Below, one piece after another: positions 40,061 through 61,643 of a stretch of DNA of 64,000 nt. A program made the position numbers and the translations under genes. Positions within the stretch are counted from its first letter, which is position 1. Each line of letters starts with the position of its first letter. Below the pieces are notes generated by a model. It was not told the origin of the DNA. It saw only the letters and a program-made list of their open reading frames with translations, and did not search any database. Origin of the DNA: Marinobacter oulmenensis (lineage in GTDB: Bacteria; Pseudomonadota; Gammaproteobacteria; Pseudomonadales; Oleiphilaceae); assembly GCF_014201735.1 (NCBI RefSeq), contig NZ_JACHFE010000006.1:186001-250000 (forward strand). Direction: 5' to 3'.

Positions 40061-40166
40061 GGAGGCTGGGGTACACTTCCTGGGACACGCTACGAGCACA
40101 TCCATGTGGGCTTGTTTCGGGCCGTCCCTGGCCCTCAACAGTCCCAGCAAGTGCACCCCGCCCTCC
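40061..40166. repeat. Family A core-in-hairpin element, copy 1
   Basis: The left arm (40061-40086) and right arm (40141-40166) are complementary at 22 of 26 positions. They enclose a 54-base core (40087-40140) that matches the core of copy 2 (57355-57408) at 51 of 54 positions. Inside the core are two small hairpins: CACAT-CC-ATGTG and GGGCC-N6-GGCCC. The element sits between bioB and bioF inside the operon. Arms resemble copy 2 only in a short GGTAC..CTTCC stretch. Confidence 0.85.
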
Positions 40167-57329: not shown

Positions 57330-57433
57330 GATGCGTGGTACCGCTTCCACAGAGACGCTACGAGCACATCCATGTGGGCTTATTTCGGGCCGTCCATGGC
57401 CCTCAATACTCTGTGGAAGCGGTACCACGCATC
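57330..57433. repeat. Family A core-in-hairpin element, copy 2
   Basis: The arms (57330-57354 and 57409-57433) form a perfect 25-bp inverted repeat around a 54-base core (57355-57408) that matches copy 1 at 40087-40140 in 51 of 54 bases. The core holds the hairpins CACAT-CC-ATGTG and GGGCC-N6-GGCCC. It lies in the leader of ybeZ, 82 bases upstream of its start. Confidence 0.88.
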
Positions 57434-57530
57434 GCCTTTCTGTTTATTTGCAGGCCCTATTACTGAAAAACAAGCCATGTCAGGCCGTCGTTGTTTTTAA
57501 TAGGCCCGTTTGGCGTTAAGTGAAGTGCGG

Positions 57531-57627
57531 TCAGGTTGAGCTTCCAAAAATGTGCGGAGCCATGGATGGCGGAGCCCAAGCGTCACATGGACGTGCCGAA
57601 GGAGCGTTTTTGGGAAGCTCAACCTGA
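57531..57627. repeat. Family B core-in-hairpin element, copy 1
   Basis: The left arm (57531-57550) and right arm (57607-57627) pair at all positions apart from a single-base bulge. The 56-base core (57551-57606) matches the reverse complement of the copy 2 core with five differences or gaps. It contains the hairpin GCCAT-GG-ATGGC and a CGTC/GACG pair. The arm bases next to the core (CTTCCAAAAA) are shared with copy 2; the outer bases are not. Confidence 0.87.
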
Positions 57628-57747
57628 TCGTGCTTCGAGCTCCCATGGTCCCCGGCATCTATTATGTGGCTATCAGGACGTTGTGCAGCATATCTCCTGG
57701 CATCCAATCATAATCACATGGGTCGAAATTTTTGGTTTGCAGAAACG

Positions 57748-59094: not shown

Positions 59095-59260
59095 GGTTCT
59101 CACGTGATTCGGTTTATGGGCGCCGGGGTGATGTAGGGCGCGGGAAAAAATGGACTGCGTATTATAACGGGGTGCCTAAACTTCAACCACCGTTGTCTCG
59201 GTATTCCATATCTGGGGGTATGCTATCATTTTGGGCCCTCTGTCTTTGGTGCCTGAAGAC

Positions 59261-59364
59261 CTTTGGGGGTGACTTTCCAAAAAACGCTCCTTGCGGCACG
59301 TCCGTGTGACGCTTCGGCTCCGCCATCCCTGGCTCCGCAGATTTTTGGAAAGTCACCCCCAAAG
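59261..59364. repeat. Family B core-in-hairpin element, copy 2
   Basis: The arms (59261-59283 and 59342-59364) form a perfect 23-bp inverted repeat, with further pairing outward after one mismatch. The 58-base core (59284-59341) is in the opposite orientation to copy 1 and begins ACGCTCC. In this orientation it aligns with the plan of family A: ACGCT, a hairpin with loop TCCGTG, then a hairpin with TCCCTGGC. Confidence 0.88.
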
Positions 59365-59418
59365 CTCTTTGATCTCGCTATTGAGTGGCCGGATCAAAAG
59401 TTTTGGATGATCGGCGTT

Positions 59419-59500
59419 GGGTGGGCGGTGCTTTTTCTGCAGGAAAAATTGTCTGAGCGAAGCGAGTTGTTTTTTCCGGAAGAAAAAGCATCACCCATCC
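59419..59500. repeat. Family C core-in-hairpin element, copy 1
   Basis: Left arm 59419-59448 and right arm 59471-59500 pair along CTTTTTCT/AGAAAAAG, GGAAAAA/TTTTTCC and the GGGTG/CACCC end, with a three-base internal loop and a few G-T pairs. The apical core (59449-59470) contains TGTCTGAGCGAAGCGAGTT, identical for 19 bases in copy 2. Confidence 0.82.
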
Positions 59501-61331: not shown

Positions 61332-61643
61332 CGAGTTCGGCTCCTGTTGGCTTTGTCGGGGGATTCAGGCGGGAGAGATTCTGCCATGAATTGGGGTGGG
61401 ATTCATGGGTGGTTTTCTATTTTTGGGGAAGGCCGTGGGGTATCCGCCGTACTCATTGTTTGAGAGCTATTCGTTATGAAGGGAGGTCTTGGTACAAAAG
61501 TCTGCCGGCGATGGGGTGGGGGTATGTTTTTCTGCCGGAAAAAGATGTCTGAGCGAAGCGAGTTATTTTTCCAAAGAAAAACATACCCCCACCCCGGCGC
61601 CAACCACCGAGGTAGGGATCTCAAATCTCAGGAATACCGAAAA
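61332..61643. other. Intergenic region cysN-yejK with one hairpin element
   Basis: 312 bases without a gene. Family C copy 2 (61513-61595) lies 49 bases past the cysN stop and is the only structure seen; it may act as the 3' end of the cysDN transcript. Confidence 0.75.
61513..61595. repeat. Family C core-in-hairpin element, copy 2
   Basis: Outer arms 61513-61533 and 61575-61595 are perfectly complementary over 21 bp. After a small internal loop GGAAAAA/TTTTTCC continues the stem. The apical core (61544-61565) shares TGTCTGAGCGAAGCGAGTT with copy 1. GCGAAGC inside it is known to form an unusually stable mini-hairpin in single-stranded DNA. Confidence 0.86.

Follow-up and report, generated by a model that had tools for sequence, protein, structure and literature searches.

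The hairpin elements of the window, by which we mean the whole stretch of 64,000 nucleotides of the Marinobacter oulmenensis genome under analysis, belong to a real, widespread structured element: a family of ~106-base hairpins with dozens of intergenic copies in Marinobacter, also present in many other gammaproteobacteria. We consider it probable, short of firm confidence, that this is a dispersed family of the YPAL/TwoAYGGAY type, whose transcripts act as clamps for a CsrA dimer and whose paired stems are kept by selection and fed by template switching. As far as the tools used here show, what is new is the spread of the family across the class, the CsrA reading of a YPAL-type core, the assignment of function to one strand, and stems that covary and are specific to each locus.

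Results

The elements of the window

Direct reading of the sequence confirmed the two elements that the initial annotation had described, with their arms and their 54-nt cores, which differ at three positions (3/54). Element 1 (57330-57433) has outer arms at 57330..57354 and 57409..57433, paired over 25 bp with 0 mismatches, around a core at 57355..57408. Element 2 (40061-40166) lies between bioB and bioF; its 26-bp arms (40061..40086 and 40141..40166) form 22 Watson-Crick pairs, one G.U pair and three mismatches, and enclose a core at 40087..40140 whose A-N-GGA strand is antisense to both genes. A repeat finder paired the two as a 68-nt family (88%), and their folding z-scores against dinucleotide shuffles are -10.1 and -5.3. 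The strand described earlier was the plus (TCC) strand; the informative fold is that of its complement. On the minus strand, 57409..57433 is the 5' arm and 57330..57354 the 3' arm of the RNA of element 1, and the core holds two A-N-GGA hairpins, CACATGGATGTG at 57365-57376 and GGGCCATGGACGGCCC at 57387-57402. The arms and core of element 2 are likewise assigned to the minus strand.

A second core type (GCGGAGCCATGGATGGCGGAGCC...GTCACATGGACGTG) is found in two further copies. One of them (57525..57633, plus strand; R1 83.3 bits, RF01731 32.4 bits) lies 90 bp from element 1 between miaB and ybeZ and forms an inverted pair with it, and the other (59258..59367, minus strand; R1 88.0 bits, RF01731 32.1 bits) lies upstream of miaB. 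Another short repeat of the window, TGTCTGAGCGAAGCGAGTT..TTTTT, occurs twice, at 59429-59474 and 61525-61570, with 2.1 kb between the copies.

Copy number and distribution

A covariance model built on 19 own-genome copies yielded 60 matches in the M. oulmenensis genome, far above what chance would give, and for 56 the E-value was < 1e-11. Further copies, which the initial annotation had named as a check, thus exist in number, with tens in most relatives: within the genus, five genomes carry 3-11 copies, one carries 32, and the remainder carry from 56 to at least 102. Since some members of the genus have just 3-11 copies, the element is not essential. At the class level, 33 of 276 sampled gammaproteobacterial genomes, across 30 of 216 genera, contain matches, and their cores (for example GTCGGCGGCAGGGATGCCGCCGTCGAGCGTACAGGGATGTATTCACAGCGTCC) likewise sit within long locus-specific stems. 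A pattern scan of named genomes returned mainly Marinobacter and, in addition, Haliea, Parahaliea and Idiomarina, while a comparison of the core with phage and plasmid collections returned no match. A long-core variant of ~185-191 nt occurs at L079, L091, L161 and L183; its second A-N-GGA hairpin bears an extra domain holding the palindromes CAGCAATCACAGATTGCTG and GAAGCTTCGCTTC.

Genomic context

With a simple gene caller, 196 of 197 copies fell outside called genes. The own-genome copies comprise 37 between co-directional genes (25 sense and 12 antisense), 15 in convergent gaps and 8 in divergent gaps, against 37.7, 7.7 and 14.7 expected from the gap types of a relative, so that convergent gaps are over-represented and divergent gaps under-represented. 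Close pairs obey a strict orientation rule: all 47 distinct pairs (47/47) are arranged minus-then-plus, with the A-N-GGA strands directed outward and 12-198 bp between the members.

The general hypothesis that each element carries its own promoter was rejected, because the regions upstream of the copies, taken together, show no enrichment of sigma-70 -10 boxes; a weak motif is present there near -25. The 90-bp spacer of the miaB-ybeZ pair (57435..57524) contains on its minus strand, upstream of ybeZ, a block in which TTGTTT-N17-CAAATA lies within CTTGTTTTT-N(6-8)-GGGCCTGCA[AC]ATA (L108-L131). The comparison of orthologous loci revealed that this block is conserved across much of the genus. By its sequence it is promoter-like, and we presume that it is possibly of the heat-shock type, as expected for ybeZ. 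Several miaB-ybeZ spacers (L120-L128, for instance L122 at ~1150-1320) also contain GTAGGTNGGATTA...TAATCCGACCTAC palindromes, which resemble GTAG-tagged REPs.

Downstream of the 3' arm, at +14 to +20, a recurrent CNCCNAA-N4-CAGGCTAGGGC motif occurs in 38 of 197 copies, where ~3 would be expected. This excess makes a composite transposon with CAGGCTAGGGC ends a candidate, against which stands the finding that the pair spacers are unrelated between loci. Two other assignments were discarded after inspection of the sequence: an intrinsic terminator, as the stem has no U-tract behind it, and an integron attC site, as the flanks have no complementary core sites.

Covariation of the outer stem

In an ungapped profile of 192 distinct copies, the arms are 95-99% Watson-Crick paired over the first ~20 bp and ~89% paired up to 26 bp, and pairing falls to chance (~25%) by 29 bp, which defines a sharp arm edge. 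The alignment of 62 distinct own-genome sequences has 97.0% of its cells paired, compared to 66.3% after shuffling, and two-sided changes at 25 of the 26 outer pairs; its covariation score is 0.756, as opposed to 0.186 in the shuffled control and no more than 0.158 in the slid one. This alignment was fitted to the model, but the ungapped arm profile concurs with it. The covariation of the arms that the initial annotation had proposed as a check is therefore massive, and its view that the element is either selected as, or created by, a folded form is upheld, with the strand now given by the mismatch asymmetry described below.

Orthologous loci tell how the stems change. In 414 flank-matched comparisons, which are non-independent and some of which mix left and right pair members or replaced elements, 3467 pairs had gone from one Watson-Crick state to another by changes on both sides, and 499 pairs had changed on one side between a Watson-Crick pair and a G.U pair or mismatch. 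Where both flanks supported the comparison and the orientation was unchanged, there are 28 double and 27 one-sided changes at 90-100% flank identity, and 163 and 47, respectively, at 85-90%. Double changes are also clustered (602 adjacent versus 417 expected). Hairpins are known to arise and persist through template switching, and replication template switching between the arms would be expected to yield this many double changes while divergence is still low (PMC8794818). The alternative account would be fast compensation under selection.

The strand that folds

When a G-C pair undergoes a transition, the result is a G.U mismatch on one strand and an A.C mismatch on the other, and a strand-symmetric DNA process predicts that the two are equally frequent. 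Read on the A-N-GGA strand, the mismatches are 120 G.U and 17 A.C (p = 3e-20), indicating that this is the strand kept foldable. The own-genome mismatches are 55 G.U to 8 A.C, and because the own-genome copy list is essentially complete, selection by model score is an unlikely source of the excess. The own-genome ratio varies with the context: it is 22:1 for sense copies, 14:2 for convergent, 7:0 for divergent, and 12:5 for copies antisense to both neighbours. The contrast between the copies outside the antisense class (43:3) and those within it (12:5) has p = 0.03 in the own genome and p = 0.08 genus-wide. The asymmetry and the contrast between contexts together point to selection on the fold of the A-N-GGA strand, clearer where transcription is likely.

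A-N-GGA loops and CsrA

Both hairpins were found in 184 of 197 copies. The scan demanded GGA in the loops, and left unconstrained the leading A, which is present in 183/184 and 180/184 copies, and the following N, which can be any base; the base after GGA is mostly C or T. The loop-to-loop distance is 23-25 nt in 174 of the 184 copies, a spacing bridgeable by one CsrA/RsmA dimer. Judged as a sequence pattern, the free N inside A-N-GGA is a CsrA/RsmA signature. Class-wide cores read GTACAGGGATGT, which fits the CsrA SELEX consensus, RUACARGGAUGU. The paired hairpins are a putative CsrA ligand with two sites close to the ideal; together with stems whose sequence turns over while they stay paired, this suggests that the DNA repeat acts as RNA. 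CsrA is encoded in the M. oulmenensis genome and, in the class sample, it is present in all 33 element-bearing genomes (33/33) versus 209 of 243 others (p = 0.02), a weak test given that most of the class has CsrA.

Flips, replacement and mobility

The bioB-bioF copy has the same antisense orientation in 8-9 genomes and is absent in others. Elsewhere, opposite orientations were found in 9 of 23 single-copy ortholog clusters, some of which are replacements. At two loci compared between G001 and G019, partly conserved arms enclose a core that is inverted, and other loci look like replacements of the whole region; the same comparison showed no clean insertion footprint, that is, no empty and filled site with a target duplication. 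At a tRNA-Asn locus, G009 carries the entire pair as an inversion with respect to G023 and G019. The CNCCNAA-N4-CAGGCTAGGGC motif was observed close to the breakpoints of this inversion (G009/G023). G256 (L296-L303) has a relative of the hairpin within a recently spread 165-bp MITE with CAGCAATTCCCAATTTG ends and ~9-bp target duplications. Mobilisation of the RAYT/REPIN kind was rejected, because Y1 transposases are missing from many element-rich genomes: PF01797 is absent from G001, G005, G008, G009, G019 and G021-G024, which carry from 56 to at least 102 copies each. A long perfect palindrome, GGGGTCAGATGAAAGCTTTCATCTGACCCC, is present at L110 (G002), with a terminator-like variant at G001:C1 near 661460, and relatives have other hairpins there.

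Discussion

Relation to known elements

The statement in the initial annotation that no named element has this plan proved wrong. The family core is, to judge by alignment scores, homologous to YPAL/RU-2, reportedly the Yersinia palindromic sequences described by De Gregorio in 2006. The YPAL core scores 57 against a class-wide core (shuffled maximum 26), 47 against a Marinobacter copy in G019 (shuffled maximum 23), and weakly, 25, against the window copy (shuffled maximum 20). Like the Marinobacter elements, YPAL/RU-2 is intergenic, present in tens of copies, and forms a strong stem-loop. The 168-nt YPAL/RU-2 sequence printed in PMC2759123 includes this core. YPAL reportedly differs in being longer (~168 bp) and flanked by target duplications, whereas the Marinobacter copies are ~106 nt long with locus-specific arms. 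It has been reported that YPAL is mobile, inserted at or near dyad symmetry, and co-transcribed with upstream genes, possibly affecting RNA stability (PMC2229807). Our literature search found no paper that names YPAL and CsrA together.

The plan of the element is that of the RNA motif TwoAYGGAY (RF01731, clan CL00106): two hairpins with AYGGAY loops inside a poorly conserved outer stem, on the same strand. Both features are found here, with two hairpins in 184/197 copies and a covarying outer stem. The scores of the window copies (26.9-32.4 bits) and of the own genome (up to 38.2) are below the gathering cut-off of 43, which one relative, L274, passes with 45.2 bits. The loop also differs, since N is often G or A in these copies, giving ANGGAY instead of the strict AYGGAY. 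TwoAYGGAY has already been matched to the CsrA site and proposed to bind CsrA in a motif study (PMC4333381), and the descriptions consulted, unlike what we find in Marinobacter, do not portray it as a high-copy dispersed repeat.

Ysr224 (RF02770), a Yersinia sRNA, matches class-wide relatives on their complementary (TCC) strand, at 47 bits and E 1e-7 for L281, below its cut-off of 70; it differs in lying on the opposite strand for L281, L272 and L268, and it looks like a YPAL transcript. The sponge RNAs CsrB/CsrC and RsmX/Y/Z would share the same A-N-GGA hairpin chemistry, but they are single genes with many sites, while here there are many copies with two sites each in one long stem; a search for RsmZ (RF00166) in the own genome gave no match. 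REP/BIME/REPIN, NEMIS/Correia and ERIC are also small intergenic palindromes, NEMIS units being ~106 bp with long inverted ends, and REPINs form inverted pairs. However, their stems are conserved between copies, while those of Marinobacter are locus-specific and covarying.

A possible mechanism and its alternatives

In the reading that we favour, one strand, the minus strand for elements 1 and 2, would form, as RNA, a stem of 26-29 bp around a core that holds two A-N-GGA hairpins; these, being ~24 nt apart, could be clamped by one CsrA/RsmA dimer. The copies, which lie mostly in 3'-UTRs or between cistrons and in some cases have an inverted partner and perhaps a promoter of their own, would bind CsrA when transcribed, and thereby locally change the stability or translation of the carrier transcript. 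Together, 60-100 copies may titrate CsrA. The stem would be free in sequence and selected for pairing, with double substitutions, likely by replication template switching between the arms, supplying new paired stems, and the core may be flipped or replaced at a site. This reading draws on the loop signature, the covariation and sharp edge of the arms, the mismatch asymmetry, the intergenic placement and convergent bias, the co-occurrence with CsrA, the two-sided changes at orthologous loci and the earlier CsrA proposal for RF01731. Against it count the flips of single copies between species, the lack of -10 box enrichment, the sub-threshold RF01731 scores of the window copies and the low copy number in some members of the genus. 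A simple cis-acting role in mRNA does not cover all copies, since both neighbours lie antisense to 12 of the 37 co-directional copies and the antisense orientation at bioB-bioF is kept in 8 genomes.

Another explanation, which we regard as unlikely, would be that the elements are mobile DNA whose single strand, once folded, is acted on by a transposase or recombinase, as with REPINs, IS200/IS605 and attC; the core would then be the recognition structure, and pairing would be kept for mobility. Strand-specific folding, variable arms with kept pairing, the fixed inverted pairs at 12-198 bp, the in-place flips and the inverted pair are all consistent with it, as are the relatives inside the G256 MITE and the description of YPAL as mobile in PMC2229807. 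On the other hand, many sampled copies are common to several species and still paired, Y1 transposases are missing from nine element-rich genomes of the genus, the G001/G019 comparison gave no clean insertion with target duplication in Marinobacter, and the free N exactly inside A-N-GGA is the CsrA signature.

Still less probable is a CsrA-independent element of mRNA ends, in which the long hairpin stops 3'-5' exonucleases or serves as a site for RNase III and the loops are incidental. Such roles have been suggested for YPAL, as for further MITE RNAs of bacteria, and the preference for convergent and 3' contexts, the very stable stems and the YPAL co-transcription and possible RNA-stability effect (PMC2229807) agree with them, but a hairpin can block without conserved A-N-GGA loops, fixed loop spacing or a preferred strand, and plain perfect stems fold on both strands. 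The least probable account, and a very improbable one, is that the palindromes are functionless, perfected by template-switch correction during replication and spread by hitch-hiking. It would accommodate the near parity of double and one-sided changes at the highest flank identity, the surplus of double changes at lower identity and the clustering of double changes, and template switching is known to maintain hairpins (PMC8794818). It is nevertheless disfavoured by the 120:17 mismatch ratio, where strand symmetry predicts G.U = A.C, and by the conservation of loops and core across many genera.

Extending the CsrA-clamp reading, one may picture a distributed titration network built from mobile-element-derived hairpins, a possibility that we hold to be doubtful. 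Each genome would carry 60-100 transcribed two-site clamps, with stems drifting freely through template-switch double substitutions, and global CsrA activity would be set by the summed transcription of scattered loci. Inverted pairs would then be divergent double units, and core flips would be on/off switches.

The stems preserve, at orthologous loci, an uncommonly rich natural archive of paired substitutions, which could serve to test how RNA stems stay paired during sequence turnover. Our findings join the YPAL palindromic repeat and the orphan RNA motif TwoAYGGAY, which have been described separately, under one testable function, CsrA binding. If this is true, CsrA regulation in many gammaproteobacteria would include dozens of unannotated sites spread by a repeat.
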